Source of the DNA: a virus
Direction: 5' to 3' (one strand)
IMG/VR virus record: IMGVR_UViG_3300036853_000358
Coordinates: 1 to 32,862 of that record
Length of the DNA stretch: 32,862 nt
The notes beneath the pieces are model-generated. The model was not told where the DNA came from and made no database searches. It saw only the letters and a program-made list of their open reading frames with translations. A program made the translations under genes and the position numbers. Below are positions 2,054 through 29,377 of this stretch, piece by piece. Position 1 is the first letter of the stretch. The number at the start of each line of letters is the position of its first letter.

Positions 2054-2059
2054 GCGACG

Positions 2060-2136: not shown

Positions 2137-2526
2137 ATGACACCGCAACTCTCAACACCGCCGAACGGCTCGCCCGTCACGTATCCGACGATCACGGCGG
2201 GCGGCAAAGAATATCAGCTCCGCTTCGCGCACGCCGCATGGTTCCAGTTGCAGGCGTGGGGCTTCGTGCTCGGCGATCCGAACCGGCCGATCCCGATCCT
2301 GGCGCTCGCCGCGGCTGCCGCCGGGCAAGTGGACCCGGCGACCGGCGCGTGGCGCTCGATCGGCTTCGCGCGTCCTCTGGATCTGGCCGACGCGATGCTG
2401 CCGGGCGAACTGCTGTCGGCGCTCGATGCGCCCGTGCTCGAAGCTCTAAAAAAAGCCGCGCCGGAGGCGGACCTGACGCTCAATCAGTCACCGGCGCCCT
2501 CGCATCCTCCCGAGCCGCTCAACTGA
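2137..2526 (+). CDS. Tail assembly chaperone, short form (gpG-like)
   Basis: 129 residues, start with a GGAG Shine-Dalgarno at 2126. It lies between the major tail and tape measure genes, the conserved place of tail assembly chaperones. The N-terminal part (YPTITAGGKEYQLRFAHAAWFQLQAWG) matches the usual 'field equation' of such proteins, a short beta hairpin followed by helices. Near the C-terminus the codons CTA AAA AAA form a -1 slippery site, giving a longer fusion with the overlapping frame. By analogy with lambda G and GT, the short form would be in excess and both would coat the tape measure before tube polymerisation. Confidence 0.85.
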   Translation: MTPQLSTPPNGSPVTYPTITAGGKEYQLRFAHAAWFQLQAWGFVLGDPNRPIPILALAAAAAGQVDPATGAWRSIGFARPLDLADAMLPGELLSALDAPVLEALKKAAPEADLTLNQSPAPSHPPEPLN

Positions 2527-2972: not shown

Positions 2973-5900
2973 ATGGCAGTTGAATCGCTCGGCGGCGTTT
3001 CCGTAACGATCGACGGCGATCTCGGGCCGCTCAAAACCGCGTTTACGCAGGCGCAGGCCTCGGCCCAGCAGGCCGGGGCCGGAGTCGCGGCAGCGTTCAC
3101 GGCGGGGTCGAAGACTATCGCCGGAGCGCAGGCTGCGGTGAAACAGGCGACCGAGAACCTGGCGCAGGCGCAGAAACTTTTTGCTCAAGCTACTGCTGCC
3201 GCCGCCGGAGATGCTGCGTTTGCCATAACAGCCGGAAATAAAGAGGTTGCTGCGTCAATCGCACTCGTCGTCGAACAGTACAAAGCCGAGCTGGTGGCCG
3301 CTACCGCTGCACTTGCCGGAATGGCGGGGGCGACTGCGGAAGCCGGAAACGCCGAGGTCGCGCTCGCGGCCAAGACGGAGGTCGCCACCGTCGCGCTCAA
3401 GCATCAGGTGTCGGAATTGCAGGCCGTCAGCGGTCTGCTGCGCGTGGGCGAAGGCGCTGGCGCTTTCCGGGCTGCGGAAAAAGCACTGACGCTGATCCCG
3501 GGCCTTGGGGCCCTGGCGCAGATGATTTTCCCTGTAGTGGGCGCGATCGCACTTGCCGAGGCGTTCTACAAAATCTGGGAAAAGACCGACCCTCTTATAA
3601 AAGCGCAGGCCGACCTTGTCGAAGTTACAAAGAAGACGAATCAGGAATTCGAGTCACTCTCGAAGACATTCGATCGAATCAACGTCGCGCAACTGACGGC
3701 CGAATTCAGCAAGGCTGCGGGATTGCATCTCGCCGCTTTTTATAGTCAGACGACAGCCGACGAAGACAAAGACCGCATTAATGCCCTGGTGGCGAAGATC
3801 GAATGGGCGCGCGGGCGGATCAAAGCGGAAACCACGCAGACGACGAATCCGATTATTTCCACTCTCGAAGCCTTCAATCCGCTGATCACTGGAATGAAGT
3901 TCGCCGAGGGCCGCGACGCTGCGGCGCAGGCGGTGAACATAGAGGGCTTTCAAAAGGAAATCGAGCTTCTAAAGTACAAAGGAACACTCGCCGAAAAGCA
4001 GGCAAAACTCGATGCGACCAACTCGGCGAAGGATGCTGCGCGTGACTCCGCGCAGATTGCCATTGCTTCGATAGCGAACCAGATCGCGGCAACTACCCGG
4101 CTGTCGGATTCGATCAAACAGAAGTACGAAATCGAAATCAGGCTCAGCCAGATCGCCCGCGACGCCGAGATCGCCGCCATGCACGACCCGCACGCCCGTG
4201 CGATCGCGCAGGCCGATGACGACGTGCGGGTCGCTCAGGATCGTCTCGCAAAGCTGAAGCCGCTTTACGAGGCCGACGCCAAAGCGAAAGCCGCCTCGAT
4301 TCTGAAGCAGACGGCGCAGGAAAAGGTCGGCAAAGATCCGGGCGAACGGGCGGCTCTTGAAATCAGGGCGCAGGGTCAGATCGTCGCAGCGAATGATGAA
4401 GCGGCCAAACTAATCACGGCGCTTTGGGCCGCCGAAGCCGAGAGCGAAGCGAGAACCGGGGTCGTCCGCGTCACCCAGCAACGCGAGGTAATGGCGCAGT
4501 GGGATGCCGAGGTCATGAAGGGCTTCGAGTCCCTCGACAAGCAATGGAAACAGGCGCTCGCCCGGGGCGAGAAGTACACGCAGGATCAACTGAACCAGCT
4601 CACCCGCGTCGCCGAAATCGATGCGAAGGGCAAGGGCTCGACCGATGCCCTGACGATTCAGGCGAACAAGCTGGCGGCAGAACGTGCCTATGGCGACGCT
4701 GCGCTGCACACCGCTGCACAGCAGGTCGAATACGCCCGCCAACTGGCGGGATTTGACAGCCAGGCGCGGGCGGCGAAGATAGCGGGCCTCGCCGCCGAGC
4801 TGGTCATTGCGCAGGCGGCAGCGACGGAGATCTCGGGCGGTGAAAAGGTCGCCAACATTCAGCAGCAGATCAATGCCCTGAAGCTCGAAGGCGCGAATGC
4901 CGACGAAGCGGCGGCGATCAAAAACGAACAGGCGCTCGAACGCCTCACCCTGCATTACAAACTGCAGGCTGCGCTGCGCAACGCCGGGCAGCAGATCCCG
5001 GGCGCGATCGGTGGGGCCCTGGCCTCCGGCCTGACGGGCGGCCAGCGTGGCGAAAGCGTCGGCCAGCAGATTACGACGGCATTGCGGGGCGTCGGCCAGC
5101 AACTGCTTTCGACCGCGTTTACGGCGCTGATCAATCAGCTCGTCGTAACGACCGGCGTGCAGGCGTTGCTCGGCTCGATCACCGGAACATCGACCGCTAC
5201 ACACGTGGCGGCGACGACCGTCAATACCGCTGCCCTGGCAGCGAATACGGCGGCACTTGCCGCACACGGGGCGGTCGGCGCAGCTGGTGGCGTGGTGGGT
5301 GCAGCTGGAGGCCTCGGCGGGGCAGCGGGCAGCGTCGCATCGACTGCTGCCGGAGGCCTTGTCGGCCCGCTGATCGCAGCGGCGGGCGGCGTTATCGGCG
5401 GCGTCATCAGTGGTGTAATGGGCCTCATCGGATCGGCGTCCATCGTAAAAGCTGTTCACGGGACGACGGCGGCGGTTCAGGCGTTGCGCACCGTGCCGGG
5501 CGGCGCACCCGGAACGGCGGCGGGCGGTCTTGCGACGGCTCCGCCGCCTGCTCCGTCAGGCGGCGGGCTGTTCGACGATATCCCCGGCAAGATCTCATCG
5601 GGCCTTTTGGAAGGGCTGTTCGGCCTCGGCGCATCGAACGCGATCCCCGTCCGTGTTGTTTCGGGGTACGGGATCGCCGGAAAACTGGCGGGCGGGCTGT
5701 TCGGCTCGCTGCTCGGTTTGATCGGTTTCGCGGGCGGCGGTTCGCCGCCGATCGGCGTGCCGAGCTGGATCGGCGAGCACGGCAAAGAACTCTGGATACC
5801 GCACGAGGCGGGCGTCATCGTGCCGAACAACCAGCTCGGCAACATGCCGATGCCGCGGATCGGCGGTTCGTCGTCGTCGAGCGTCTCGAATTCATCCGGC

Positions 5901-6026
5901 GATCAGCACTTCACGTTTCACGTGAATGGCGCAGCCAATACGCGCGAAACCGTCCGGGCGATCGCTGATTACATGAAATCCGCCTCGCCGGCGTTTGCGA
6001 CAGCCAGCAGCCGGAGCAGACTGTAA
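2973..6026 (+). CDS. Tape measure protein
   Basis: 1017 residues, starting directly after the chaperone stop, with a GGAGGAAGG ribosome site inside the chaperone end. The protein is Ala-rich, mostly helical and largely coiled coil. A hydrophobic segment lies at about 174-203, and a long Gly/Ala-rich hydrophobic region at about 762-826, which may be the part that inserts in the host membrane. The C-terminus has the conserved tape-measure pattern with AGGG, then WIGEHGKELWIPHEAG at about 930-945 and PNNQ. It sets tail length and passes through the tube at infection. No lysozyme or peptidase motif was recognised. Confidence 0.93.
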   Translation: MAVESLGGVSVTIDGDLGPLKTAFTQAQASAQQAGAGVAAAFTAGSKTIAGAQAAVKQATENLAQAQKLFAQATAAAAGDAAFAITAGNKEVAASIALVVEQYKAELVAATAALAGMAGATAEAGNAEVALAAKTEVATVALKHQVSELQAVSGLLRVGEGAGAFRAAEKALTLIPGLGALAQMIFPVVGAIALAEAFYKIWEKTDPLIKAQADLVEVTKKTNQEFESLSKTFDRINVAQLTAEFSKAAGLHLAAFYSQTTADEDKDRINALVAKIEWARGRIKAETTQTTNPIISTLEAFNPLITGMKFAEGRDAAAQAVNIEGFQKEIELLKYKGTLAEKQAKLDATNSAKDAARDSAQIAIASIANQIAATTRLSDSIKQKYEIEIRLSQIARDAEIAAMHDPHARAIAQADDDVRVAQDRLAKLKPLYEADAKAKAASILKQTAQEKVGKDPGERAALEIRAQGQIVAANDEAAKLITALWAAEAESEARTGVVRVTQQREVMAQWDAEVMKGFESLDKQWKQALARGEKYTQDQLNQLTRVAEIDAKGKGSTDALTIQANKLAAERAYGDAALHTAAQQVEYARQLAGFDSQARAAKIAGLAAELVIAQAAATEISGGEKVANIQQQINALKLEGANADEAAAIKNEQALERLTLHYKLQAALRNAGQQIPGAIGGALASGLTGGQRGESVGQQITTALRGVGQQLLSTAFTALINQLVVTTGVQALLGSITGTSTATHVAATTVNTAALAANTAALAAHGAVGAAGGVVGAAGGLGGAAGSVASTAAGGLVGPLIAAAGGVIGGVISGVMGLIGSASIVKAVHGTTAAVQALRTVPGGAPGTAAGGLATAPPPAPSGGGLFDDIPGKISSGLLEGLFGLGASNAIPVRVVSGYGIAGKLAGGLFGSLLGLIGFAGGGSPPIGVPSWIGEHGKELWIPHEAGVIVPNNQLGNMPMPRIGGSSSSSVSNSSGDQHFTFHVNGAANTRETVRAIADYMKSASPAFATASSRSRL

Positions 6027-6029
6027 CCC

Positions 6030-8957
6030 GTGGCATTAAGCCAGACCATCACGTTTCCGGTCATTCCGGCGCATACGTCGGCCGACGGCCCGATCACGCT
6101 GGCCGCAACGGCTTCGTCGGGATTACCCATTACGTACACCGTAACCGGACCGGCCACGCTCGCGGGGAACGTGCTGACGCTGACCGGACCGGGCTCGGTC
6201 AGCGTTACGGCGCTGCAGGGCGGTTCGGCAGGCGCGGGCATTTTCGTGCCCGGCGTTCCGGCGACCGTGATGCTGAACTGGGAGGATCAATTCGGCGGCG
6301 GCGACGGCTCGTACGGGAACGGCACGATCCGGATCATCTTCGACGGCGCAGGCCACGCCACGATGGAGTGGCTCGGCACGCTGGTCGGAACGGCTTCGAC
6401 GAATGCCTTCGGCATCCGGACCGCCGGCGTAAACGGCACGGCGCTGGTCGGAACGACCGTTGGCGCTGGTCCCGTCGCGATCACGCCGCTGCCGGCAGTC
6501 GGGGCCGAGCTGATCGTCTATCTGACGAACGCGGTTTCGGCGGGCGGTTTCTTTACCGGCCCGGCCTCGCGCAATCCGGACGGATATTTCCATTGCTATA
6601 TCGGGGGCGATCCGGCAGCCACTGGTTATCTGGCGGCCACGCCGGTCGTTCGCACGTTCGCCGTCTCGGCGATCAGTGCCGATGCCTGGCTCGTGATCTA
6701 TGAAGCGGGCGGCGCAGTCGATCGCAGCTCGTATTTATCGTTCGCCGAAGGCGCTTCGCATTCGTTCAGCCTGCAGAATCGCCACCGGGGCACGGCGGCG
6801 TTCATGCTCGAAATCCCGGCAGGCGATACGTACATGCCGGAGCGCGGCTGCTTAATCAAGCTGTACGATCCGACCGGCGCGGGCGGGTCGCCGCCGGTTT
6901 ACGCAGGCACGATCGACGTGATCGATGTCGCATGGAAAGGCGACGACGGGACGCGGGTCGCGACGCTCAACTGCGTATCGCTCGAAAAGGTTTTCGATGC
7001 GATTCTGGTCCCGCCGCGGCTCTATACGAATCAGACGGCGTACCAGATTGTCGTCGCGCTGTTCGCACTCGTCGACGGGTCGCCGGTTCTCGCGCCCGAC
7101 GTACCGGCCTCGGATTCAAGTCCGGTCGTCCCTTCCCTGCTCTGCGATTACGATCGGATCTCGGATCTGTTCGACCAGCTCGCGAAACGCGCGAACTTCG
7201 TCTGGGGCGTCGATCCGCAGACGATGCAGCTTTTCTTCCATGCGCCGAACGCCGAGCCCTCGCCGTTTACGCTGACCTGCGATGACGTCTTCTGGGAAAG
7301 TTGCACGTGGAACGTCAACGGCCAGGACTTCCGCGACTGGCAGGCCGTGCGCATATCGCCCGAAGCGTTCACGCATTCGAAGGAACTGTTTACCGGCGAC
7401 GGCTCGACGGGTTTCTTTACGCTGATGCGGCCGCCGAAGCAGATCACGAACGTCTGGCAGACGCGCAACACGCAGAACACGGCGACGGGCACGTTCTCAG
7501 GCGTTCCGGCGGCAGGCGATACGGCAACGATCGGATATCCGGGGGCGGGCGGCGGGACACAGTACAACTGGGCTGCATCGTCGCCGTATGCGATCGGGCA
7601 GTCGATCATCGATCCGGCCGGGCACGTGCAGAAAGTCTCGACCGCCGGGCAGTCAGGAACGACGGAACCTGTATGGAACGATATCGGATCATTTACGGTC
7701 GACCAGGCCGGATTGTTAGCGAGCGGCGTTATCTGGCAAGACAACGGGATTTCAGGGCTCGACGGTTCAGGTGGCAACTTAACGTACACCTTCGTCGCCG
7801 CGCTCGATAACACGCAATGGGGCCAGGTGCTCATCGGCTCGGACGCCGCGGCGACCGCCCGGAATTTCGTCGATGCGATTAACCGGGTCGATGATCTGGC
7901 GGGCGTGACGTTCTCAATGCCGACGTGGGAGAACCCGCTCGTGAATGCGGACCCGCCGTCCGGCGGTTCGTTCGTCGTGCGCAATAAATCGGCCGGCAAA
8001 GGCTACGTCGCCGCGCTCAGTGACAGCGGATCCGCTTTTTCGTGGTCCGCTGCGATCACGTCCGGCGGCATTACGACGTTCAATACGACCTCGCTTGAAG
8101 CCGCGGTCGAAGGGACAAGCAACACGGCAGACGTTTACTACACGCCGGGCAACCCCGTCGTCGGGCCGGTCATTCCGCGGACGCCCACCGGCTACTATCT
8201 CCAGATCGAATACACGCGCGTCGGCGGCGACATCATCATCGTCGAAGATACGGCGCTCGTGGCCGCCAGAGCGGCGATCGAAACCGGCACGGGCAAGTAT
8301 CAGCAGATCATCAGCGACTCGTCGAACACGTCCGCGCCGGCGGGCCTGCTCGAAGCGCAGGCCACGCTGAACGCCTATAAGATCGCACCGACGACGATGC
8401 AGTTCCAGACGTTCCGGCGCGGCATCACGCCGGGGCAGTTGCTCACCATCACGCTGGTGGGCCCTGGACATGATCCGGCGAATCCAGGGCACGCGCCGTT
8501 TTTAGCTAACGCGACATGGGCAGTGCAGGAAGTTTCGGCCGAGCTGGTTCCAGGCGTTAAGCCGCACATGCCGATGACGGGCGCGGGGCATTACAAATAC
8601 ACGCTGCACGTCGTCGATGCGGCGCAAGTTGCAGACTATATCGATTTTTGGGAATCGCTCGGCGGCGGGGGCGGTTCGACCGCTCCGGCCATTCAGGGCC
8701 GCACGCCCGAAGCGCCGGGACCGATCGGCCCAGCGCCGCTGCCGGCTGCGGCCGTCATCGTAACGGCAATTCCCGTGGGCGCGATCGACGGCTCGAATGC
8801 CGTCTTTACGCTGCCAAGCGTTCCTCGAGGGCCGCTCGATCTTTTCCTGAACGGCGTCTGGCAGATGCCGGAAGACGTGGCGCTGGCCGGGTCAACGGTC
8901 ACGTACGCGCGCGCGCCCGAACCGGGCGACGGGCACACCGCGCACTACCCCGGATAA
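6030..8957 (+). CDS. Tail tip / baseplate hub-like protein with Ig-like domain
   Basis: 975 residues with a GTG start 3 nt after the tape measure stop. Residues about 5-72 are an Ig-like repeat of the family shared with the major tail protein. About 74-190 is a beta-rich domain with an aromatic NWEDQFGGGDGS patch. About 225-480 looks like a hub: a distal-tail-like stretch (SFSLQNRHRGTAAFML) and a baseplate-hub-like part (VYAGTIDVIDVAWKGDDG, FDQLAKRANFVWGVDP). About 518-560 resembles a small carbohydrate-binding module. The last ~67 residues (from about 909) form a module also present at the end of the next protein. Position after the tape measure supports a tail-tip role. The domain borders are estimates. 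Confidence 0.7.
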   Translation: MALSQTITFPVIPAHTSADGPITLAATASSGLPITYTVTGPATLAGNVLTLTGPGSVSVTALQGGSAGAGIFVPGVPATVMLNWEDQFGGGDGSYGNGTIRIIFDGAGHATMEWLGTLVGTASTNAFGIRTAGVNGTALVGTTVGAGPVAITPLPAVGAELIVYLTNAVSAGGFFTGPASRNPDGYFHCYIGGDPAATGYLAATPVVRTFAVSAISADAWLVIYEAGGAVDRSSYLSFAEGASHSFSLQNRHRGTAAFMLEIPAGDTYMPERGCLIKLYDPTGAGGSPPVYAGTIDVIDVAWKGDDGTRVATLNCVSLEKVFDAILVPPRLYTNQTAYQIVVALFALVDGSPVLAPDVPASDSSPVVPSLLCDYDRISDLFDQLAKRANFVWGVDPQTMQLFFHAPNAEPSPFTLTCDDVFWESCTWNVNGQDFRDWQAVRISPEAFTHSKELFTGDGSTGFFTLMRPPKQITNVWQTRNTQNTATGTFSGVPAAGDTATIGYPGAGGGTQYNWAASSPYAIGQSIIDPAGHVQKVSTAGQSGTTEPVWNDIGSFTVDQAGLLASGVIWQDNGISGLDGSGGNLTYTFVAALDNTQWGQVLIGSDAAATARNFVDAINRVDDLAGVTFSMPTWENPLVNADPPSGGSFVVRNKSAGKGYVAALSDSGSAFSWSAAITSGGITTFNTTSLEAAVEGTSNTADVYYTPGNPVVGPVIPRTPTGYYLQIEYTRVGGDIIIVEDTALVAARAAIETGTGKYQQIISDSSNTSAPAGLLEAQATLNAYKIAPTTMQFQTFRRGITPGQLLTITLVGPGHDPANPGHAPFLANATWAVQEVSAELVPGVKPHMPMTGAGHYKYTLHVVDAAQVADYIDFWESLGGGGGSTAPAIQGRTPEAPGPIGPAPLPAAAVIVTAIPVGAIDGSNAVFTLPSVPRGPLDLFLNGVWQMPEDVALAGSTVTYARAPEPGDGHTAHYPG

Positions 8958-8961
8958 CCCT

Positions 8962-11061
8962 ATGCCGACATATGTATCGTACGGCGGCGCGACCTTCTCA
9001 GCATCAGCGGCAATCACGCCAGCGTCGAACGCCTTCGATAGTTCGGTCAGTTCGGCATGGACTGCAGGGCCGCCCGCATGGCTGCAGATCCAGCTCGCGA
9101 GTGCGGTCGTGCTCAGTTCGTACCGGATTCAGGCGGGCCTCGCGACGGCCAGCTCCGCATCTTCGCCAGCCGCCTGGACGATGCAGGGCTCGAATAACGG
9201 CTCGACCTGGACGACGATCGATACGCAGGCGGGCCAGATCTCGTCGGCGTGGCTGACGCAGGGCGGCTATTACGTTCAGGACTTCCCGGCCGCGTCGGGC
9301 GTGGCGTATCTCTTCTATCGATGGAATTTCAGCGCGGCGAACGGCGCAGCGTTCGTTGCCATCAATACGATCTATCTTTACCTCGGCACGCAGATCATCA
9401 CATTCCCGGCGATCCCGGCGCACTTGACGACAGACGGCCCGATAACACTGGGGGCGACCGCTTCGTCGGGCCTGCCCGTTTCTTATTCCGTCTCCGGCCC
9501 GGCGACGATCTCAGCCGGCGTCCTGACGCTAACCGGCTCGGCGGGCGTCGTCACGGTCATCGCCAGCCAGGCGGGCAATTCCACTTATCCGGCGGCCATA
9601 TCAGTCACTCGCTCGTTTACGGTTTCCGCGCCGCCCGCGGCGCAAACGATCACGTTCCCGGCGCTCGCCGATCAGATCACGACGGCCTCGCCGGTCCATC
9701 TTCTTGCCACGGCTTCAAGCGGGCTCGCCGTTTCGTACTCGATCACCGGCCCGGGAATTCTCGTTATTGTGAGCGGGGCGTATTACGTGCAGTTGACCGG
9801 CTCGATCGGCACGGTCAGCGTGACGGCCTCGCAGCCGGGCAGCGGCGCATGGCTCGCCGCTACGCCCCTCGTTCGAACGTTCAACGTGACGGCGGCTCCG
9901 GCCGCCAACGTCATCACGTTCGCGGCGATTCCGGACAAGCTCACAACCGATCCGATGTTCGGCCTCGTGGCCTCTGCTTCGTCGGGCCTGCCGGTCACGT
10001 TCGTCGTGACCTCCGGACCGGCGACGGTGCTCGGCGGCATCGTAACGCTGACCGGCGGCACGGGCACCGTCACGATTACCGCATCGCAACCCGGCAACGG
10101 AACGTATGCGGCGGCGACACCGGTCAGCCGCACGTTCCTTGTATCGACACCGGCGGCGCAAACGATCACGTTCCCGGTCATTCCGGACCACCTGAATACA
10201 GACGGATCGTTTACGCTGCTCGCGACCGCTTCGTCGGGCCTGCCGATTACGTACGTAGTAACGAGCGGCCCGGCGAGCGTCTTCGGCTCATCGTGCATTC
10301 TGACGGGCGGGCTCGGTTCGGTCACCGTCACGGCGTATCAGCCGGGCGATTCGACCCACGCTGCAGCGACGCCGGTCAGCCGGACGTTTAACGTTTTGGC
10401 GCCGGCGCTCGTGCCGCAAACGATCACGTTTCCGCCACTGCCGGACCGGCTGGCCAGTGCCATATTTACGCTCGCCGCCACGGCTTCAAGCGGGCTCGCC
10501 GTCACGTATACGATCAGCGGACCGGCGACGCTGTCCGGCTCGATCGTGACCGTAACGGGCACGGGCTCGATTACGATTACGGCATTTCAGGCGGGTGATT
10601 CAACGTGGGCGGCAGCCGTGCCCGTCGCCCGCACGTTCAACGGCGTGGCGCCGGTCGACAAATATCAGCGGGGCAACATCGCATACAACCAGATCCGCGC
10701 CGCGCACCGGCAGGGCTCGGGCGGCACTGTTCAAATGTACAGTGGTGCGCCGCCGGCGTCCGGCAACGTCCCGGTTTGGGATCCGAACGGCTCGCTCGTC
10801 GATTCCGGCGTTTCGGCCGTTGCCGGCGGCAGCAGCGGAAGCGGCAACGCTGCGGTCTTCGGCGAGACGCCGCTCGGCACGATCGGCTCGTCGAATACCG
10901 TCTTTACGCTGGCCTTCACGCCGTTAAATGCCGCGGTCGATCTGTTCCTGAACGGCGTGGCACAGCGGCCGACCGTCGATTTCCTGCTCGCCGGATCGAC
11001 GATCACGTACACCGTCCCGCCGCGGACGGGCGACGTCCACACGGCGAGCTACCGGAGGTAA
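8962..11061 (+). CDS. Fibre-like protein: F5/8C-type domain plus five Ig-like repeats
   Basis: 699 residues. Residues about 1-140 form a discoidin-like (F5/8 type C) carbohydrate-binding fold, with ASNAFDSS, AWLQIQL, WTMQGSNNGSTWTTI and the closing VAINTIYLY strand. Five Ig-like repeats of about 80-85 residues begin at 144, 228, 316, 400 and 486, each opening with a QTITFP-like strand and containing ASSGL. A linker with AYNQIRAAHRQG follows. Residues 634-699 are the C-terminal module shared with the upstream tail-tip protein (IGSSNTVFTL, LFLNGV). The protein has no catalytic signature. A role in host-surface binding is inferred from domains and position. Confidence 0.75.
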   Translation: MPTYVSYGGATFSASAAITPASNAFDSSVSSAWTAGPPAWLQIQLASAVVLSSYRIQAGLATASSASSPAAWTMQGSNNGSTWTTIDTQAGQISSAWLTQGGYYVQDFPAASGVAYLFYRWNFSAANGAAFVAINTIYLYLGTQIITFPAIPAHLTTDGPITLGATASSGLPVSYSVSGPATISAGVLTLTGSAGVVTVIASQAGNSTYPAAISVTRSFTVSAPPAAQTITFPALADQITTASPVHLLATASSGLAVSYSITGPGILVIVSGAYYVQLTGSIGTVSVTASQPGSGAWLAATPLVRTFNVTAAPAANVITFAAIPDKLTTDPMFGLVASASSGLPVTFVVTSGPATVLGGIVTLTGGTGTVTITASQPGNGTYAAATPVSRTFLVSTPAAQTITFPVIPDHLNTDGSFTLLATASSGLPITYVVTSGPASVFGSSCILTGGLGSVTVTAYQPGDSTHAAATPVSRTFNVLAPALVPQTITFPPLPDRLASAIFTLAATASSGLAVTYTISGPATLSGSIVTVTGTGSITITAFQAGDSTWAAAVPVARTFNGVAPVDKYQRGNIAYNQIRAAHRQGSGGTVQMYSGAPPASGNVPVWDPNGSLVDSGVSAVAGGSSGSGNAAVFGETPLGTIGSSNTVFTLAFTPLNAAVDLFLNGVAQRPTVDFLLAGSTITYTVPPRTGDVHTASYRR

Positions 11062-11064
11062 ACG

Positions 11065-13236
11065 ATGCCGACTGATTTTGCACCGCACACGATGACCTCG
11101 AACGTGCTGCCGACGCCGCTCGCTGCGTCCGCATCGAATGTTTACGCGGGTTTTGCGTACTCCGCATTTAATGGCAATCTCGCCGATTACTGGGCGGGAC
11201 CAAGCGCCGTCGAGTGGCTTCAGATCGATCTGGGATCCGCTTCCCATGCCCTCACGAGTTATGCGGTAGCCCATACAACAGGCGGCATTCTGGGCACGTA
11301 TGCGCCCCGAGACTTCACGCTGCGTGGGAGCAATGACGCCTCAACGTGGGTTACGCTCGATACGCGCACGGGCGAAACCGGCTGGGCTAATACGGGTGAA
11401 ACGCGGACGTATACATGCACTTCTCCGACCGGCCTCCCGTACCGTTACTATCGCCTGAACATTACCGCCGGAAACGGGTCGGGCCGCGTTGCCGTGGGGG
11501 AACTGTATCTCTACGAAACTTCCCTCACCGCGCAAACGATCACGTTCGCCACGATCCCGGCGCACCTCACAACCGACGGCCCGATCACGCTGGCCGCGAC
11601 GGCTTCAAGCGGCCTGACGGTCACTTACGGCATCACCGGGCCGGCCACGCTGGCGGGCTCGGTCGTTACGCTGACGGGTTCCGTGGGCACCGTCGTCGTC
11701 ACCGCCAGCCAGGCCGGCAACGGAACCTATGCGGCAGCGCCGAACGTCGTGCGCAGCTTTGCCGTGACGGCGGCCGTGATAACCAGCCGGGGCGGCATCA
11801 CGTACGACCAGATCACGGCGTCGGATCGCAGCGGCACGGGCACGAAGCTGGCGACGGTTACGGGAGCGGTAACGACCGGCCACGTTCCGGCGTTCGACGC
11901 ATCGGGCGCCCTGATCGATGGCGGCACGTTCGATGTATCCGGGGCGGCGGCAGCCGCGCAGGCGGCGGCGATCCTCGCCAGTCTGCAGCGCGCATCGAAT
12001 CTTTCGGACCTGGGCAGCGTGGCGACGGCGAAAACGAATCTGGGCCTCGTTGCCGTGGCCTCGAGCGGCAGTGCTGCCGATCTGACGACCGGTACGCTGC
12101 CGGCCGCACGCCTGCCGAATCCGTCAACGACAACGCTCGGCGGTATCCAGTCATATGCAGCCGTGGCGAACCAGTTTCTCGATCGCATCTCGACGTCCGG
12201 CGTGCCGCTTTCGCGGGCGATCGTGGCGGGCGACATTCCGACGCTGAACCAATCGACTACGGGCTCGGCTGCATCGTTCACCGGATCGCTCGCTGGCGAC
12301 GTGACCGGAACGCAGGCGGCGACCGTCGTCGGCAAGCTTAACGGGGTTTCGCTGGCGGGCCTTGCGACCGGCATCCTCAAAATTACGACGACGACCGGCG
12401 TGCCGTCGATTGCGCTCAGCGCCGATATCATCGCGGCGCTCGGCTATACGCCGACGTCGCCCACAACGCTGGCCGCATGGCCCGGCAGTGCGAACATTAC
12501 GACGCTCGGAACGATCACGTCGGGAACGGTTCCGGCGGCCCGCGTCAGCGGCCTCGCGGCAGTGGCGACGTCCGGATCGGCCGCCGATCTGACGACGGGC
12601 ACGCTGCTCGCGGCTCGTATGCCCGCGCTGACCGGCGACGTAACGAGCACTGCCGGAACGGTGGCCACCACCGTGGGCAAGATCAACGGCGTGACCGTCA
12701 ACCAGGCCGGCAACAATATTGTCATCGGAATCGGGTCGCTGTTATCTACTACGGGCACGCAGAACTTCGCATTTGGGCCGCAAAGTGTGTCGAGCAACAC
12801 CAGCGGAAATCAAAATCTGGGCATTGGCAGCATCACTCTTTACTTAAATACGACAGGCAGCGGAAATATAGGCATCGGCTTCGCTGCGGGCAGTCGTTCA
12901 GCCGATCCCCTGCAGAGCAACATCACGGGCAATAACAACACGTTCATTGGAACGCAGGCGTCGATTGCTTCGGGCTCTGATCCCCTGACTAATGCAACCG
13001 CCATCGGTTCGTTCTGCTCCGTCCCGACCTCCAACACCGTTGCGCTCGGCGACGGCAGCGTTACGCGCATCTATCTCGGCATGAAGGTCTCGATTTACAT
13101 CGGCGCGGGCAGTCCGAACTCCGCGGTCGTCGGCAAGCCCGGCGACATCTATCTGAACACCAGCGGCGGGGCGGGAACGACGATTTACATCAAAGAGAGC
13201 GGCACGAATACGAACACCGGCTGGATCGGGAAATAA
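11065..13236 (+). CDS. Tail fibre with F5/8C-type domain and stalk repeats
   Basis: 723 residues, start 3 nt after the previous stop. About 1-152 is a second F5/8C-type domain (EWLQIDLGSASHALTSYAV, DFTLRGSNDASTWVTLDT, YYRLNITAGNG). One Ig-like repeat starts at 157. Residues from about 240 form a repetitive stalk with two copies of SGSAADLTTGTL.AAR and motifs such as ALTGDVTSTAG that are common in phage fibres. After about 545 come NTTGSGNIGIG-type repeats resembling left-handed beta-roll heads of trimeric adhesins. The C-terminus ends in a GKPGDIYLNTSGG...TGWIGK pattern. Likely a trimeric receptor-binding fibre. Confidence 0.8.
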   Translation: MPTDFAPHTMTSNVLPTPLAASASNVYAGFAYSAFNGNLADYWAGPSAVEWLQIDLGSASHALTSYAVAHTTGGILGTYAPRDFTLRGSNDASTWVTLDTRTGETGWANTGETRTYTCTSPTGLPYRYYRLNITAGNGSGRVAVGELYLYETSLTAQTITFATIPAHLTTDGPITLAATASSGLTVTYGITGPATLAGSVVTLTGSVGTVVVTASQAGNGTYAAAPNVVRSFAVTAAVITSRGGITYDQITASDRSGTGTKLATVTGAVTTGHVPAFDASGALIDGGTFDVSGAAAAAQAAAILASLQRASNLSDLGSVATAKTNLGLVAVASSGSAADLTTGTLPAARLPNPSTTTLGGIQSYAAVANQFLDRISTSGVPLSRAIVAGDIPTLNQSTTGSAASFTGSLAGDVTGTQAATVVGKLNGVSLAGLATGILKITTTTGVPSIALSADIIAALGYTPTSPTTLAAWPGSANITTLGTITSGTVPAARVSGLAAVATSGSAADLTTGTLLAARMPALTGDVTSTAGTVATTVGKINGVTVNQAGNNIVIGIGSLLSTTGTQNFAFGPQSVSSNTSGNQNLGIGSITLYLNTTGSGNIGIGFAAGSRSADPLQSNITGNNNTFIGTQASIASGSDPLTNATAIGSFCSVPTSNTVALGDGSVTRIYLGMKVSIYIGAGSPNSAVVGKPGDIYLNTSGGAGTTIYIKESGTNTNTGWIGK

Positions 13237-15523: not shown

Positions 15524-16057
15524 ATGGCAAACTTACGAGCAAAGGATTTCGACTTCGGCGCACCGAAGGTGATGGCGTTCAAGGCGGCAGGCCAGAACGT
15601 CGACGGGCAGTACGGAACGCAGGTTCGATTCAGCACGACGGCAGGCGATTCGCTGTATCTGGATCCGGATCCGGCGAACGATATCGAAACGTCGATGCGT
15701 TCGCTCGGCATCGCGTACGGCGAGGAATTCCGCCTCGCCCGCGCCAAGACGTCGCACGGCGGCAGCCGGTTCGTGATCGAACGGATCGCAGGCCGTGACG
15801 CCGGCGGGCATAACGTACCCGCCCGTTCGGATGCGTACGAAGAGCCCGTGCAGCGAAGCGCTGCGCCGGTTGCGACGGTTGCGGCGCAATCGATTACGGC
15901 GACGAGCATGAAGTTCTGCGCCGCCATGATGACGATGGTGGACGCGATGCGCGAAACGAAAACCTACGCGCTGCGCTGCGGGCTTGACCTGACCACGGAA
16001 GATCTTCGGGCGATGGTCATCTCGGCTTACATCACCGATTGCAAAGGCGGCCGTTAA
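15524..16057 (+). CDS. Hypothetical protein upstream of Gp157-family gene
   Basis: 177 residues with a strong GGAGGA ribosome site. The N-terminal half (GQYGTQVRFSTTAGDSLYLDPD, YGEEFRLARAKT, SRFVIERI) is predicted beta-rich and could be a small barrel. The C-terminal half is helical (MKFCAAMMTMVDAMRETKTYAL...EDLRAMVISAYI). It overlaps the Gp157-family gene by one base (TAATG). Neighbours of that family often act in recombination or single-strand DNA handling, so a DNA-binding role is possible but not shown. Confidence 0.6.
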   Translation: MANLRAKDFDFGAPKVMAFKAAGQNVDGQYGTQVRFSTTAGDSLYLDPDPANDIETSMRSLGIAYGEEFRLARAKTSHGGSRFVIERIAGRDAGGHNVPARSDAYEEPVQRSAAPVATVAAQSITATSMKFCAAMMTMVDAMRETKTYALRCGLDLTTEDLRAMVISAYITDCKGGR

Positions 16058-16614
16058 TGGCTACCGCTTCCCTTTCCCTCGTTCCGAAGCGCTCGCTGTT
16101 CGCGCACGTCGCCGAAGTCGAATCGATCGCCGATCTGGTCGATCGGCTCGATCGCACGAACGAACTGACGCCGGAGGCTGCCGAGCAGCTTTCGGCCGCG
16201 CTGATCGAAGCGATCGCCGGAACGAAACAGAAGACGGACCGGACCTGCGCAGTACTCGCTGCCTTCGAAGCAGCCGGGACGGCGGCGAAGGCCGAACGCG
16301 ATCGCCTGGACGTGCGCGTGAAGTACTTCGAACGTCAGGCCGAACGGCTCGAAGCTTATTGTCTGGCCGTGCTGTCGGCGTCGAATCTCGATCGCATCGA
16401 CGGAATGACGGCATCGATTTCGCGCCGGAAGAATCCGGGTAAGGTGATCGTTGATTCACCGGCCGCTGTTCCGTGGGATTTTATGCGCCTGCCGGAGCCG
16501 AAGCCCGAGCCCGTGGCCGAGCCCGATAAGAAGCTCATCGCGCAGGCGCTTAAAAACGGCGTGCCGGTTTCCGGCTGCCGGTTCATTCAGGATTTCCGTT
16601 TGGTAAGGAGCTAA
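16057..16614 (+). CDS. Siphovirus Gp157-family protein
   Basis: 185 residues from the TAATG start. A helical first half (coiled coil around RLDVRVKYFERQAERLEAYCLAVL) is followed by the family hallmarks: a short beta segment MTASISRRKNPGKVIVD, then PWDFMRLPEP, then PDKKLIAQALKNGVPVSGCRFIQ near the end. This matches the Gp157 family (PF05565), named after a Streptococcus phage protein linked to phage resistance. Its biochemical role is not settled; it often accompanies early recombination or replication genes. Confidence 0.85.
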   Translation: MATASLSLVPKRSLFAHVAEVESIADLVDRLDRTNELTPEAAEQLSAALIEAIAGTKQKTDRTCAVLAAFEAAGTAAKAERDRLDVRVKYFERQAERLEAYCLAVLSASNLDRIDGMTASISRRKNPGKVIVDSPAAVPWDFMRLPEPKPEPVAEPDKKLIAQALKNGVPVSGCRFIQDFRLVRS

Positions 16615-16616: not shown

Positions 16617-16931
16617 ATGTCCACGACTAACGCAACTGACTGGGAACGCCTCGGCGCGTTCCCGCAGCACGACGAAGAGCCGGAAGCGGAGGCGCACTGC
16701 GACGAGTGCCTGACGCTTTCGACTGCCCTTGAGAATGCGCGGGCGCTTCTGCGCACGATCCGGCGCATGGAGGCGAAGCCTGCCAAACGCGAGACGCCGG
16801 ACGACACGCCGGCAACGTTGCAGGCCGTCGGTCACGCTTCGTACGTGGCCGCGGTCCACACCCGCATTGATTTGTTTTTGGAAGAACCGGAGATCGAGCG
16901 CGCCCGGCGCAATCCGCGCCGGAGGTCCTGA
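16617..16931 (+). CDS. Hypothetical protein with a CxxC pair
   Basis: 104 residues, start two bases after the Gp157 stop, with AAGGAG upstream. HCDECLTL gives a single CxxC near residue 26, followed by a helical stretch and an Arg-rich end (ERARRNPRRRS). One CxxC pair is not enough to call a zinc finger. Part of the 15.1-17.8 kb early operon. Not recognised. Confidence 0.55.
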   Translation: MSTTNATDWERLGAFPQHDEEPEAEAHCDECLTLSTALENARALLRTIRRMEAKPAKRETPDDTPATLQAVGHASYVAAVHTRIDLFLEEPEIERARRNPRRRS

Positions 16932-17013: not shown

Positions 17014-17766
17014 ATGTCCACTGCAATAGCCCGCATCTACACACCCGAAGGCTTCGTCGTCGCTGCCGATGGCCGCACACTGAACGCGGCCACGGGCAAA
17101 GTCGGAACCGACACGATGCAGAAGATCTTCCCGCTTCATCACGAGCAGGGAGACATTGCGTGCGTTATAGCCGGATCGGGTCAGTTCTTCTCGCATATGG
17201 GAGAGTTCACCTTCGGCGCGGAAGTGAGCCAGGCGGCGCTGGCCATCGCGCGGACGGAGATCCGCAATCCGGATCACTATGCCGGACAGCTCGCCGCGCT
17301 TGTCGTCAAAAAGCTCGAAGTCTTCAAACTGGTATTCCAGCCTGCATCGCTCCACGCGCGCACGGAAGCGACGCACATCTGGCTCGAAGGCTATCTCGCC
17401 GGGCGACCCATGCGCCGTAAGATCACGCTCGCGTACCAGACGGAAACGGTCGTCGCCGAGGTTTCAGCCGCAGAGCTGGACCCGCCAGGGAAGATCTGGG
17501 CGTACGGGTCTCAACTGGTGACAGGTCTTCTGTTCGCTCCGAAGGATCACGGTTATCTGACGCCTTACTGGAAGGTCTGTCAGCCGCCCTATCCGGCGAC
17601 GATTGAAGATGCGGTGCGCGTGGCGCTCGCCGTTATCCGCGCGCATTGCGACGAGGAAGCGATCAGGATCGACTCCTATGGCTGCGCGGCCGTCGGCGGA
17701 CGCATACTCGCCGCGAAGGTCACGCCAGCGGGCGGCTTCGAGTGGGTTCAGGGATTCGCGCCGTAG
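17014..17766 (+). CDS. Proteasome beta-subunit-like Ntn hydrolase
   Basis: 250 residues from the ATG at 17014 (GAGG 5 nt upstream). An upstream ATG at 16951 would add 21 residues but has no usable ribosome site. Counting the Thr of MSTAIARI as T1, the protein has D17 in FVVAADGRT, R19, and a KIF motif with Lys at 35. A beta-sheet segment with IAGSGQF follows. In proteasome-type Ntn hydrolases T1, D17 and K33 form the active site, so the layout fits with a two-residue shift at the lysine. The start encodes Met-Ser before the Thr, which would have to be removed. The C-terminal half (about 120-250) includes a GxxC-like YGCAAVGGRILAAKV strand region. Target is unknown. Confidence 0.7.
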   Translation: MSTAIARIYTPEGFVVAADGRTLNAATGKVGTDTMQKIFPLHHEQGDIACVIAGSGQFFSHMGEFTFGAEVSQAALAIARTEIRNPDHYAGQLAALVVKKLEVFKLVFQPASLHARTEATHIWLEGYLAGRPMRRKITLAYQTETVVAEVSAAELDPPGKIWAYGSQLVTGLLFAPKDHGYLTPYWKVCQPPYPATIEDAVRVALAVIRAHCDEEAIRIDSYGCAAVGGRILAAKVTPAGGFEWVQGFAP

Positions 17767-17769: not shown

Positions 17770-18102
17770 TTAGGCTGAAGCGGTCGCGGCCCGTTCCTGC
17801 TGCGTGCCGGCGGGCTTGCGCTGCTTCGAATGTACACGCTTCGGCTTTTCTGTCTTTGTCTGAGCGACGGTCCCGTTTGCCGCGGCTTTCTTCTCGGCGC
17901 CGTTCGAACGTGCGCCCGACAGTTCGGCGAGATTACGCGAGGCGTAGTCGGAGAGGGAGTTCCAGAATTCCATCACGGCAGTCTTCGTCTTCAATGCGGG
18001 CGCAGTCGCGAGGGCTTTCGGGATGAGCTGCAGAGCAGCGGCGGCATTTGCGTCGGCAGGCATGTCCCGTTTTGAAATCGGGAGGAGGAGGAGTTTCGTC
18101 AT
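17770..18102 (-). CDS. Lone leftward hypothetical protein with basic tail
   Basis: 110 residues. A helical N-terminal part (residues 20-62, including TAVMEFWNSLSDYASRNLAEL) is followed by a low-complexity basic tail rich in Lys, Ala and Thr. The gene has its own promoter candidate, TACGCT exactly 6 nt before the ATG, and no Shine-Dalgarno. It converges with the Ntn hydrolase gene 3 nt away. Single leftward genes next to integrase are often expressed in the lysogen. No function can be given. Confidence 0.6.
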   Translation of the reverse strand: MTKLLLLPISKRDMPADANAAAALQLIPKALATAPALKTKTAVMEFWNSLSDYASRNLAELSGARSNGAEKKAAANGTVAQTKTEKPKRVHSKQRKPAGTQQERAATASA

Positions 18103-18231: not shown

Positions 18232-19269
18232 TTAGAGCACTTTTCGCAGGGGGTAGCGCGCGATGGACCGCCGAACGTATTTGGCGACGTTCTCGACGGA
18301 CTTATGACCGGACAGCGCCATGATCTCGAACACGTCCGCCCCGGCATCGGCTGCGGCCGTGATCGCTCCCGCACGCAAACTGTGCGCGCCGAATTTCCGC
18401 CAATCGAGTCCAGCGCGTTTCGCAGAGGCACGCATTGCGTAGTAGACCACGTTCGGTTCGATCCGGTCTCTGGTCAGCGCGTCACGCTTCGTTATGTCGA
18501 CGAAAAGCGGCCCGGACCAGTGGCCGCGCTCTACGATCCACGCATGAAGCGCGCGAACTGGACAGACGCCAGCACGCTTCGCCCGCGGAATTACAAGTTC
18601 ACGGCCGCGGCCGAGCTGATCGGTTTTTGACCTGGCGAGATTTACGTTCACCCGATCATCGTGCATCGTCAGGTCCTCCAGGTCGAGGCCCGCCAGTTCC
18701 GAGCGCCGAAAAGATCCGGCGAATCCCAGCAGCAGCAAAGCGCGGTCGCGAGTACTTCGGAGCGTTTCCTCGGAAGTGAGCAGCTTAGACATCGCGGTCA
18801 GTTCCGTCACGGTGATCGCAGCTTTCTGCCGGACCCGCTGGACATTCTCTCGCCGAGCTCCGGCGATCGCTTCGCGGACCACCAGCGTGTTGGGCGATCT
18901 GAAGCCGTGAAACTCGTGACGATATGCGATCGCTGCGGCGCGACGTTCGAGTGTCGAGACCTTCCGAATGTGTGACAGGTGGGACAGGTACAACGCCACG
19001 GTTTCGGGTTCAGCAGGAAGCGGTGTTCTGGCGTTTGCGGCACACCATCCGGAGAAGTCCTTCCAGTCGTCGGCGTAAGCGGCGATCGTTCGCGGAGCGT
19101 GGCTTGAGCCACGCAGCTGAACCAGGCGTGCGCGGGCGGATGCCATATCTGTTGCTCCTTGCCAATCTTCACACAAAAACATCTGTTCGGCTACTACGAC
19201 TGCTACTACTTCGCGTTCCGGAGTTTTTGGGCGCATGGTCGAAGTCGTTTGTTCCTGAGGAGTTTTCAT
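18232..19269 (-). CDS. int: Tyrosine recombinase / integrase
   Basis: 345 residues. An N-terminal SAM-like core-binding domain (about 45-145, HAPRTIAAYADDWKDFSGWC) is followed by the catalytic domain (150-345). Catalytic residues are visible: R188 in FRRSEL, K215 in SKT, H296 and R299 in HSLR, H322 in SGHKS, and Y331 in KYVRR. The size suits phage integrases and XerCD-like recombinases. Start taken at 19269; ATG at 19236 is an alternative and neither has a good Shine-Dalgarno. An intrinsic terminator follows. It is divergent from the initiator gene. No attP core could be identified without a host sequence. Confidence 0.93.
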   Translation of the reverse strand: MKTPQEQTTSTMRPKTPEREVVAVVVAEQMFLCEDWQGATDMASARARLVQLRGSSHAPRTIAAYADDWKDFSGWCAANARTPLPAEPETVALYLSHLSHIRKVSTLERRAAAIAYRHEFHGFRSPNTLVVREAIAGARRENVQRVRQKAAITVTELTAMSKLLTSEETLRSTRDRALLLLGFAGSFRRSELAGLDLEDLTMHDDRVNVNLARSKTDQLGRGRELVIPRAKRAGVCPVRALHAWIVERGHWSGPLFVDITKRDALTRDRIEPNVVYYAMRASAKRAGLDWRKFGAHSLRAGAITAAADAGADVFEIMALSGHKSVENVAKYVRRSIARYPLRKVL

Positions 19270-19303: not shown

Positions 19304-20446
19304 ATGCCGAGGGCCAAAAAACTGCTAAGCGAAGGCGGAAACATGGCTCTGCCTACCCCACAGTCTCCCGAATATGTGTTAGCGGAAGTTCAAAACGCCG
19401 AACTCGGGCGCGCGTTGGGTCTGATCGCGTACCTTGCGCCGACACTCGGAGAAGCCGAACTTCGAGTCCTGATCGCTCTGACAAAGCTGTTCGGCGCGAC
19501 CGAACACAAAAGTGGCCGAATCAGCGCACGGCAACTTGCAGAGCTTGCCTGCGTGTCCCGCCGGAATGTTCAGCACGCCCTGAATTCGCTCGATGAAAAG
19601 CACTTAATTGCGACTCGCGACGGTACGGCCACCCAGCCGTCGGGTCACCTTTTGACGTACCTTCGAACGACTCTTATGAGTGGTGCTGCAGCAACTCCGC
19701 CACCGCTGACTGAAGACTTATTTGCCGAGGGTGGCGCTGTTGTGACGCCACCCCTGGCGTTTTCTCAGCGCGAGGGTGGCGCTGTTGTGACGCCACCCCT
19801 GGCGTTTTCTCAGCGCGAGGGTGGCGCTGTTGTGACGCCACCCCTGGCGTTTTCTCAGCGCGAGGGTGGCGCTGTTGTGACGCCACCTCCCTTCAAGGAA
19901 CACGCGTCCGCGCGCGCAATCGATATCGATCGATTAAACCCCGATTCGATAATCGATCGACTGCTCCGCGCGAAGCCGACAAAATGCGATCCTGTGGAAA
20001 TCCGGGAGCTGAGGAAATGGGTTCACGGCTACCAGTGCAAGTTCGGCCAGGATAAAAACCCCCATGCGCCGGACGACACGATCCTGTCTCAGCTTCTATC
20101 GCTCGCCCCCCTCTACCGGATCGTCCGCATGATCGAAGATCTGATGGCGGAACGGAAGGAACCGGGCGCGAACTATGCCTGGTATGTGACCGTCGCGCTG
20201 CAGCGAATTCACGGTATCAAGCCCGAGGAATTTAAGGCCCGCAAAGCCGAACTCCGGATCGAACCAAAACGGCATCAGGCCCTAACCGGCGAACAGCAGC
20301 AATTCCCCGCCCCGGAAATCCCCGCCGAATTTACGACGAACGAACGCGCCGAAAAGCTCGACCCACGAATGGCTGATCCCGAATTCCGCCGTAAACTATT
20401 GCTCGGCATCGAGAGCGGGACGAAGGCGAAAGGAGCCGCCGGGTGA
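19304..20446 (+). CDS. Replication initiator-like winged-helix protein carrying iterons
   Basis: 380 residues from the ATG at 19304, supported by a leaderless-type box. The ATG at 19343 has a good AAGGCGG site and is a real alternative. Residues about 48-110 form a winged-helix domain (LGEAELRVLIALTKL, ISARQLAELACVSRRNVQHALNSL). Residues 142-195 are three perfect 15-residue repeats (EGGAVVTPPLAFSQR) plus a partial one, encoded by 45-bp iterons. The C-terminal part (about 205-330) is helical, with WYVTVALQRIHG, and could load the helicase. The arrangement matches lambda O, where iterons lie inside the gene. Confidence 0.8.
   Translation: MPRAKKLLSEGGNMALPTPQSPEYVLAEVQNAELGRALGLIAYLAPTLGEAELRVLIALTKLFGATEHKSGRISARQLAELACVSRRNVQHALNSLDEKHLIATRDGTATQPSGHLLTYLRTTLMSGAAATPPPLTEDLFAEGGAVVTPPLAFSQREGGAVVTPPLAFSQREGGAVVTPPLAFSQREGGAVVTPPPFKEHASARAIDIDRLNPDSIIDRLLRAKPTKCDPVEIRELRKWVHGYQCKFGQDKNPHAPDDTILSQLLSLAPLYRIVRMIEDLMAERKEPGANYAWYVTVALQRIHGIKPEEFKARKAELRIEPKRHQALTGEQQQFPAPEIPAEFTTNERAEKLDPRMADPEFRRKLLLGIESGTKAKGAAG
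19727..19887 (+). repeat. Iteron array (3.6 copies of 45 bp), probable replication origin
   Basis: Identical 45-bp units start at 19727, 19772 and 19817. A partial copy runs 19862-19887. Each unit contains the dyad GGGTGGCG, 9 nt, CGCCACCC (last copy one base shorter on the right). Repeats are in frame with the initiator gene. Contiguous copies without unique spacers exclude CRISPR. The adjacent downstream segment is the most AT-rich part of the gene. Confidence 0.85.
19926..19960. repeat. 11-bp inverted repeat in the AT-rich segment beside the iterons
   Basis: TCGATCGATTA at 19926-19936 is repeated inverted at 19950-19960, spacer 13 nt. Each arm has a GATC site. It starts 38 nt after the last iteron, where an unwinding element would be expected in a lambda-type origin. 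It lies inside the initiator coding sequence. Confidence 0.65.
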
Positions 20447-25374: not shown

Positions 25375-26781
25375 ATGCCGAAAACCAAAACGAAACCGCA
25401 GGCCCGCAAACGTTCGGCGAAGCCTGCCGCAACGCCGCGCAGCGATGCGCAGCCACCGGAACCCGAACAGCCGACGATCCGGATCGAGCAGTGGGCGATC
25501 GCGCGGCTGAAGCCATACGAGCGCAATCCGCGAAAAAATGACGGCGAACCGGTCGCGAAAATGATCGCGTCGATAAAGGAGTTCGGCTTTGCCGTGCCGG
25601 TTCTCGCGCAGGCCTCCGACGGACTTGTGATCGATGGCCATCTAAGACTCAAGGCTGCCGTTGCGATGCATCTGGCGAGTGTGCCGGTCATTCCGTGCGA
25701 CGGGTGGAGCGAGGCCCAAGTCCGCGCGTTTCGAATCATGGTCAACCGCAGCGTGTCGTGGTCGGAGTTCGACCCCGAGCTGCTGGCGCTCGAATTCGCC
25801 GAGCTGAAGGCCCTTGAATTCGATCTGACGCTGACCGGCTTCGATCAGAAGGAACTCGTCTCGTTCATGGCCGGAACGGCGAACGCCGCCGAAGACGACA
25901 TGCCGCCCGTGCCCGAAACGCCGGTTTCGCGCGCTGGCGACCTGTGGCTGCTGGGCGGCGGCGCTTCTGGAGTAACCCACCGGCTTTTATGCGGCGATTC
26001 GACGAACGCGGCGGACGTCGAGCGCCTGATGGACGGGGCGAAGGCAGACATGCTGACGGGCGATCCTCCGTACGGTGTGAACTATTCAGGCGGAAAAGGA
26101 AAGGACCGCGAGGAGTTCGAGAACGACTCGAAAGACCACGACACGTACAGGCAGTTCGTCTCAGCCAGTCTGAACGCATGGGCGGGCCATATTACAGAGA
26201 AAGGCCCGCTCTATTTGTGGTTCTCGGATTCCCAGATGGAAGCGATCCTCGCAGCGGTCGCCGAGAACGGATGGAAACGACGTTGCTTGATCCAGTGGTG
26301 TAAGAGCCATTGGGTGATGGGCCGGGCAGTCATTCATTACCACCAGCAGAACGAACCTTGCGTCTATGCGGCGCAGTGTCCAACCCTTCCCAACTGGCAC
26401 GGACCTTTCAACGAAAAGACCGTTTGGGAGTTTGACAAACCGGTCTCGTCGGATGATCACCCAACCCAGAAGCCGGTCGAGCTTTATCGAAGGGCGATCA
26501 CAAATTCGACGCGACCTGGCGAGCTCGTAGCGGAGATGTTCCTTGGATCGGGAACGACGTTACTCGCCGCCGAACTGACCGAACGGATCTGTTACGGCCT
26601 CGAGATCGCGCCCGCCTATTGCGACGTGATCGTCACCCGTTGGCAGACGCTGACGTCGAAAGCCGCCACGCTCGACGGCGACGGCCGAACCTTCGCCGAC
26701 GTGGCTGCCGAGCGCATAAACCCCAATGAAAGCGCGCCTGCGCCGAATACTTCCCGCCCCATAAAAGGAAAACGTGCCTAA
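25375..26781 (+). CDS. ParB-like nuclease domain fused to beta-class adenine methyltransferase
   Basis: 468 residues. After a basic, low-complexity N-terminus (1-32), residues about 35-130 form a ParB-type domain (KPYERNPRKN, DGLVIDGHLRLKAA). A methyltransferase follows with DPPYG at 230-234 and FLGSGTT at 389-395. DPPY before the AdoMet-binding motif marks the beta order, usual for N6-adenine enzymes. Such fusions are common in phages and may protect the genome or regulate genes by methylation. No cognate restriction enzyme is visible. The target sequence cannot be read from the protein. Confidence 0.9.
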   Translation: MPKTKTKPQARKRSAKPAATPRSDAQPPEPEQPTIRIEQWAIARLKPYERNPRKNDGEPVAKMIASIKEFGFAVPVLAQASDGLVIDGHLRLKAAVAMHLASVPVIPCDGWSEAQVRAFRIMVNRSVSWSEFDPELLALEFAELKALEFDLTLTGFDQKELVSFMAGTANAAEDDMPPVPETPVSRAGDLWLLGGGASGVTHRLLCGDSTNAADVERLMDGAKADMLTGDPPYGVNYSGGKGKDREEFENDSKDHDTYRQFVSASLNAWAGHITEKGPLYLWFSDSQMEAILAAVAENGWKRRCLIQWCKSHWVMGRAVIHYHQQNEPCVYAAQCPTLPNWHGPFNEKTVWEFDKPVSSDDHPTQKPVELYRRAITNSTRPGELVAEMFLGSGTTLLAAELTERICYGLEIAPAYCDVIVTRWQTLTSKAATLDGDGRTFADVAAERINPNESAPAPNTSRPIKGKRA

Positions 26782-28719: not shown

Positions 28720-28864
28720 TGAAGATCTCCGCTGCCGTGGTGGATCGGTCTGGTGGCGCGGGCCGACGTAACGAGCGGGCATCGCCCTAAGTCCTGCGCC
28801 CGGCGGCGGGCTCAATTTAGTCAATTTCCGGCCCGTTTCCTAACGTGCCGGACGCCGCGCGGCG

Positions 28865-28870
28865 TATCGT
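28865..28870 (+). promoter_or_regulatory. Leaderless-type -10 box (TATCGT)
   Basis: TATCGT ends 6 nt before the GTG at 28877, the same box and spacing as upstream of the initiator gene at 19304. A short GC-rich inverted repeat (GCCGCGCGGC, 28855-28864) lies next to it. The 157-bp gap after terminase also has TCAATTT twice (around 28811-28827). Confidence 0.5.
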
Positions 28871-28876
28871 ACGGTT

Positions 28877-29068
28877 GTGCTCAACGGCCGACAAATTACT
28901 ATTCACGTTGATTTTCCCGCGCTCGCCGACTACGTGGCGTACCTGCGGGAAGATCGGCAGCAGCAGCAAACCATCGACGCCCTGACGGCCAGGGTTCTTG
29001 ACGCGACCGCGCGCCTTCAGCAGTCCCGCAACAAACTCACCAGCTCAATCGAAGAGAACCAGAAATAA
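28877..29068 (+). CDS. Small coiled-coil protein
   Basis: 63 residues, GTG start without Shine-Dalgarno directly after the TATCGT box. A short N-terminal strand (ITIHVDFPALADYVAYL) precedes a Gln-rich helix (REDRQQQQTIDALTARVLDATARLQQSRNKL). First gene of the 28.9-32.2 kb operon. Function unknown. Confidence 0.6.
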   Translation: MLNGRQITIHVDFPALADYVAYLREDRQQQQTIDALTARVLDATARLQQSRNKLTSSIEENQK

Positions 29069-29083
29069 AGGAGAATCACTCAC

Positions 29084-29377
29084 ATGCCAGTAGACGTAAC
29101 AGCTCTTAACGCCTCAATCGACGCCCTGACGACTCAGACGACGGCGACCGAGGGAACCGAAGACAGCGCCGAGGTGGTTATCGCCGCTTTTGCGAAAGCC
29201 ATCACGACCGCCGTAACCGATGCTCTGAATGCCGACAAGGCAGCGAACGATGCCACCGTCGCCGCCGCCACTACCGCGATCAGTGCCGTCACAGCCCGCT
29301 TCACGGCGTCTGCCGGAAAGCTCGGCACCGCTATTGCGGCGAATCCGCTGCCGCCCTCGTTCCCGCCCGCCCCTTAA
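29084..29377 (+). CDS. Ala/Thr-rich helical protein
   Basis: 97 residues with a strong AAAGGAGA site. Long low-complexity helix rich in Ala and Thr (AEVVIAAFAKAITTAVTDALNADKAANDATVAAATTAI) and a Pro-rich C-terminus (PLPPSFPPAP). The pattern suits a fibrous or oligomeric accessory protein. Not recognised. Confidence 0.65.
   Translation: MPVDVTALNASIDALTTQTTATEGTEDSAEVVIAAFAKAITTAVTDALNADKAANDATVAAATTAISAVTARFTASAGKLGTAIAANPLPPSFPPAP

Follow-up and report, generated by a model that had tools for sequence, protein, structure and literature searches.

Does one gene of this phage genome encode a proteasome-type Ntn hydrolase, and if so, what is such an enzyme doing there? The window analyzed here is the whole 32,862-nucleotide IMG/VR virus record IMGVR_UViG_3300036853_000358, in which an earlier note, made from the letters alone, read one gene as a self-processed, proteasome-beta-like hydrolase in an early operon. 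We consider the protein to be a divergent proteasome-type Ntn hydrolase with a probability of about 0.8, and we observe that its gene belongs to the accessory part of the genome.

The open reading frame is a genuine coding gene, running from an ATG at 17014 to a stop codon ending at 17766 and encoding 250 residues. Its GC content by codon position (0.66/0.47/0.74) displays the coding-type GC3 seen in the genes for the Gp157-family protein (0.67/0.46/0.72) and the large terminase subunit, TerL (0.65/0.50/0.80), whereas the antisense frame overlapping it (0.69/0.59/0.58) has no real-gene pattern. With Thr3 taken as T1, the residues fall where the earlier note had placed them (D17, G18, R19, the pair K35-I36, and an IAGSG turn). 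An in-frame extension of 21 residues is also open upstream, from an ATG at 16951. We prefer the start at 17014, where a GAGG is spaced 5 nt from the ATG, since the extension lacks a coding GC pattern and has its own GAGG only 1 nt from its start. The extension is thus probably untranslated, yet it could be a propeptide: it begins MQFYGD, against MVFYND in the viral-contig relative described below (locus L105), and at least three of five such matches are expected by chance with a probability of approximately 0.003.

Table 1. Features of the candidate hydrolase gene and its surroundings (positions in the window)
Feature	Position	Strand	Evidence
Gp157-family gene, early DNA-metabolism type	16057..16614	+	PF05565, E=2e-23; PHROG 253 "Mu Gam-like end protection"
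104-aa gene directly upstream of the candidate	16617..16931	+	48% identity to L100:5965-6264
Alternative in-frame N-terminal extension, 21 aa	16951..17013	+	Open frame; poor SD spacing, no coding GC pattern
Candidate divergent proteasome-type Ntn hydrolase, 250 aa	17014..17766	+	ORF, coding signature, relatives, in-register HslV match
Thr3 codon, proposed catalytic T1	17020..17022	+	Invariant (n=5); next to the start Met in P0004; on HslV Thr1
D19-G20-R21 codons, proposed D17, G18, R19	17068..17076	+	All invariant; D19 on HslV D17
K37 codon, K35 in T1 numbering, proposed equivalent of K33	17122..17124	+	Invariant; on HslV K33
Convergent 110-aa gene closing the variable slot	17770..18102	-	48% over 64 aa to its L100 counterpart
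Phage integrase beside the slot	18232..19269	-	PF00589, E=5e-17

Taken alone, the phage protein has diverged beyond what the standard family libraries recognize. It has no match in Pfam, PHROGs or the PDB even at E=10, and tblastn with the protein against phage and plasmid records is likewise without a match. The Pfam proteasome model (PF00227) searched directly against the record returned nothing and its cut-off was not reached, while searching the PDB with profiles gave either no match or chance matches. Peptide-pattern scans with the single protein recovered no relatives from viral or genome contigs, and none of the 18 matches to a degenerate DNA pattern for DGR...KIFP lies in frame for such a protein. 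The sole, weak NCBIfam match is to BspB (NF047381), at 18 bits (E=0.0019) against a curated cut-off of 350 bits; we take it as chance and reject this identity, because none of the four relatives shares it.

Those relatives come from mobile elements. The viral one lies on the phage-like contig IMGVR_UViG_3300037140_000154 and shows 33% identity over residues 1 to 245, essentially the whole length. Searches steered by two N-terminal motifs repeatedly gave one and the same relative, as did real alignments, and yielded none from genome contigs. The steered alignments, in which artificial rows vary the nonmotif columns, served only for choosing search patterns, and each match was then verified by a tblastn comparison with the real protein. 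In addition, plain tblastn with residues 1 to 56 against plasmids gave a weak match (E=7) on Rhodococcus jostii pRHL1. The protein encoded there begins MTAIVFARATNGYVLAADGRT and has 36% identity to the phage protein across 101 aligned residues (pairwise E=5e-6), and its homologues on other Rhodococcus plasmids (37 to 46% identity) are hypothetical proteins where annotated. Rhodococcus plasmid relatives (L111 1998-3089, L114 2992-4077, and L115 1649-2728) carry a cysteine-rich insertion between the domain halves, which is perhaps metal binding. On the viral contig itself, two large genes, L127 10496-14254 and L128 1-2952, both on the minus strand, carry intein as well as LAGLIDADG signatures; one of the intein signatures seems to be inserted within a GSGK P-loop, and a 1,252-aa ORF combines an intein domain with a second Hint-like region.

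The gene is accessory cargo of a temperate phage, occupying a variable slot by the integrase. Two observations carry this conclusion: the nearest related phage that was found (record G001, locus L100; 81% in TerL) keeps both flanking genes, each at 48% identity, and holds other genes in the slot, and the hydrolase gene is absent from the TerL relatives covered (80 loci, 40 whole records). The neighbor that the earlier note assigned to the Gp157 family does belong to it, although it is not adjacent, the 104-aa gene lying in between.

Elsewhere in the window, a segment beside the terminase (28813-29362) corresponds to L100 6648-7184, the slot region of the closest relative, and this module has thus changed place between the two genomes. 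A perfect 45-bp tandem repeat of 3.6 copies (AVVTPPLAFSQREGG) at 19726-19887, within a replication-initiator-like ORF (19304-20446), is either iteron-like or a protein linker. Several tail proteins at 1310-13236 have in common repeats of Ig-like segments such as TITFPAIPAHLTTDGPITLAATASSGLPVTY, and at 25375-26781 an N6/N4 DNA methylase is fused to an N-terminal ParB-like domain whose weak score falls short of the Pfam cut-off.

The accessory position bears on whom the enzyme serves. It may be an Ntn amidohydrolase of bacterial metabolism or stress, carried as lysogen cargo to the benefit of the host and not the phage, a reading to which we give somewhat less than even odds. It is favored by the slot beside the integrase, by the absence of the gene from the closest relative phage, by the place of the viral-contig relative at its contig end beside an IS1-like transposase, and by the remaining relatives being on Rhodococcus plasmids. 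However, the phage gene is codirectional with the early gene array, within 83 nt of it, and our searches of genome contigs turned up no chromosomal gene as its source. This reading is compatible with the assignment to the proteasome-type hydrolases, from which it differs only in the beneficiary.

That assignment draws first on residue conservation. Thr3, Asp19, Arg21 and Lys37 are invariant in all five proteins of the family alignment, so that homologues with varying Thr, Asp and Lys, named in the earlier note as evidence against its reading, did not appear among them. The alignment has 19 invariant columns, which also include I5, G13, V15, G20 and a C-terminal GG; the hypergeometric probability of finding the four residues among them is ~1e-3 for the first 60 residues and ~2e-5 for the whole protein, values that are optimistic because one member, P0003, was recruited with a motif containing D, R and K. 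Conservation of the four thus appears to be more than chance. In the R. jostii protein P0004, a stop codon stands immediately 5' of the GTG start, and Thr is therefore necessarily residue 2.

The second line of support is similarity to HslV. Using hhalign with an alignment of eight HslV sequences as reference, T3 falls on T1, D19 on D17, and K37 on K33. None of 150 column shuffles of the N-terminal family profile reaches the score of the profile itself, whereas the phage protein by itself is equaled by 26 of 150 shuffles against the HslV profile, a nonsignificant result. When the HMM of the family N terminus is ranked against a background of about 3,794 ORFs from the analyzed loci, authentic HslV proteins take ranks 1, 2, 3, 4 and 7. 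The Thr column coincides with HslV residue 1 in four of these five alignments; that of the fifth starts later but keeps the same register. Without the motif-recruited P0003, the HslV ranks become 1, 7, 8, 16 and 17. Run in the other direction, with an HslV HMM searched against the members singly, the comparison is weaker and places the best of them 6th of 3,795; hmmscan of one family member lists PF00227 at E=0.15. These tests support proteasome membership of the family, but this support does not extend to the phage protein taken singly. Separately, the HslV matches in the phage collection mostly look like host DNA, since they are 95 to 99% identical to enterobacterial HslV or sit on short unannotated records, and they were set aside.

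In structure prediction, AlphaFold gave a pLDDT of 37 with a single sequence, and with two sequences a low-confidence model (pLDDT, 44; pTM, 0.46) whose order of strands and helices is compatible with a proteasome subunit and which places two predicted helices after strand 4. A fold search with this model returned no significant match, the weak ones including both PP2C phosphatases and 20S subunits, and none at all in the viral library. The earlier note's assignment as a proteasome-type hydrolase is supported by residue conservation, the in-register HslV match and the Thr directly after Met in the Rhodococcus relative, but falls short of proof, as prediction yielded no confident fold. The same picture could arise if T, D and K fell into this pattern by chance within an unrelated alpha/beta fold, such as a PP2C-like phosphatase, and both the PP2C phosphatases among the top, nonsignificant fold matches and the nonsignificant single-sequence profile test against HslV point that way. 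However, the usual PP2C motif is DGxGG, which is absent (DGRT here), and no PP2C Pfam match was obtained, on which grounds we judge a PP2C-like fold unlikely. Since the family profile also recovers HslV in register and one relative has its Thr right after Met, we regard a protein outside the Ntn hydrolases as improbable in general.

For the divergent Ntn hydrolase that we favor, we infer a fold, activity, processing and role along the following lines. Removal of Met1 and Ser2, by an aminopeptidase and/or by autocleavage, would leave Thr3 as the N-terminal nucleophile. Asp19 and Lys37 would assist it, and Arg21 would correspond to the residue found two positions past the catalytic Asp. The resulting Thr3 enzyme would hydrolyze a peptide or amide bond. 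The self-processing proposed in the earlier note is plausible, as the M-S-T start means that one residue besides Met must go; the same feature counts against our main reading, given that Met-Ser and not Met alone precedes the Thr and an extra cleavage would be needed. This leads to a further alternative, slightly less probable than an unrelated fold, in which the protein has the Ntn fold but has lost its catalytic function, or never undergoes processing, and acts as a binding or structural subunit in the manner of proteasome alpha subunits. In neither the phage protein nor the L105 relative (M-P-T) does Thr occupy position 2, and autocleavage at so short a pro-segment is putative, both of which would fit such a subunit. 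Yet even the very divergent relatives retain all four residues (Thr, Asp, Arg and Lys), which would be unexpected had catalysis been lost.

Least probable is the earlier suggestion of an early-expressed protease degrading host or rival-phage proteins, for although the gene lies downstream of the Gp157-family gene in the same direction, we find no evidence of such targeting: no partner ATPase or unfoldase (AAA+, HslU-type) was identified among the window genes scanned, the protein matches no defense or counter-defense model in PADLOC, its position is not conserved, and no homologue beside Gp157 was found in other phages. A benefit to the lysogen is more likely than a role against host or rival-phage proteins.

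A proteasome-fold enzyme in an early phage operon had been called unusual in the earlier note, which overstates the case. Fuchs et al. 2021 (PMC8665760) described 22 new families of proteasome homologues with unknown functions, of which PPH and AAH were found in phages, with CPH, DAH and PMI-4 also ticked for phages in their Table 1. PPH, the proteasome homologue of phages and hosts, is about 140 aa long and lacks helix H2 (PMC8665760). The Pseudomonas prophage AH14a encodes a 156-aa "proteasome subunit beta" a few genes before the terminase (PMC4936722), a possible example of PPH. The protein described here resembles PPH in being phage borne and accessory and in having proteasome-type candidate catalytic residues, and differs in its 250 aa, in the two helices predicted with low confidence after strand 4, and in having no PHROGs match. 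With HslV it aligns in register at the N-terminal Thr, D17, K33 and the first strands; however, HslV is only about 175 aa, is not detectably matched by the phage protein as a single sequence, and has an HslU-type ATPase that is missing among the window genes scanned. The group II homologues (DAH, PMI-4 and others), compared by description only, resemble it in carrying insertions or extra domains; DAH and PMI-4 are recorded in phages, and DAH occurs in Actinobacteria, as do our Rhodococcus relatives (Fuchs et al. 2021, PMC8665760). In Anbu, the catalytic Thr is laid bare once the start Met has been removed (PMC5666114), as would happen in the Rhodococcus relatives, whereas in the phage protein a further residue, Ser, precedes the Thr, and no sequence match to Anbu was found.

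The phage protein is accordingly a new and divergent example of a class that is not itself new, since the literature already describes proteasome homologues encoded by phages (PPH, AAH and others). It is possible, if on balance doubtful, that together with the L105 relative and the Rhodococcus proteins it forms a mobile-element-borne family outside the 22 of 2021 (again compared by description), in whose phage-side members the pro-segment preceding the nucleophile is unusual in consisting of one residue (M-S-T or M-P-T). The example reveals no role by itself. What it adds is a larger, divergent phage-borne member overlooked by standard annotation libraries, and because it comes with a testable candidate active site and mobile relatives, it helps to chart how far the family reaches in viruses.
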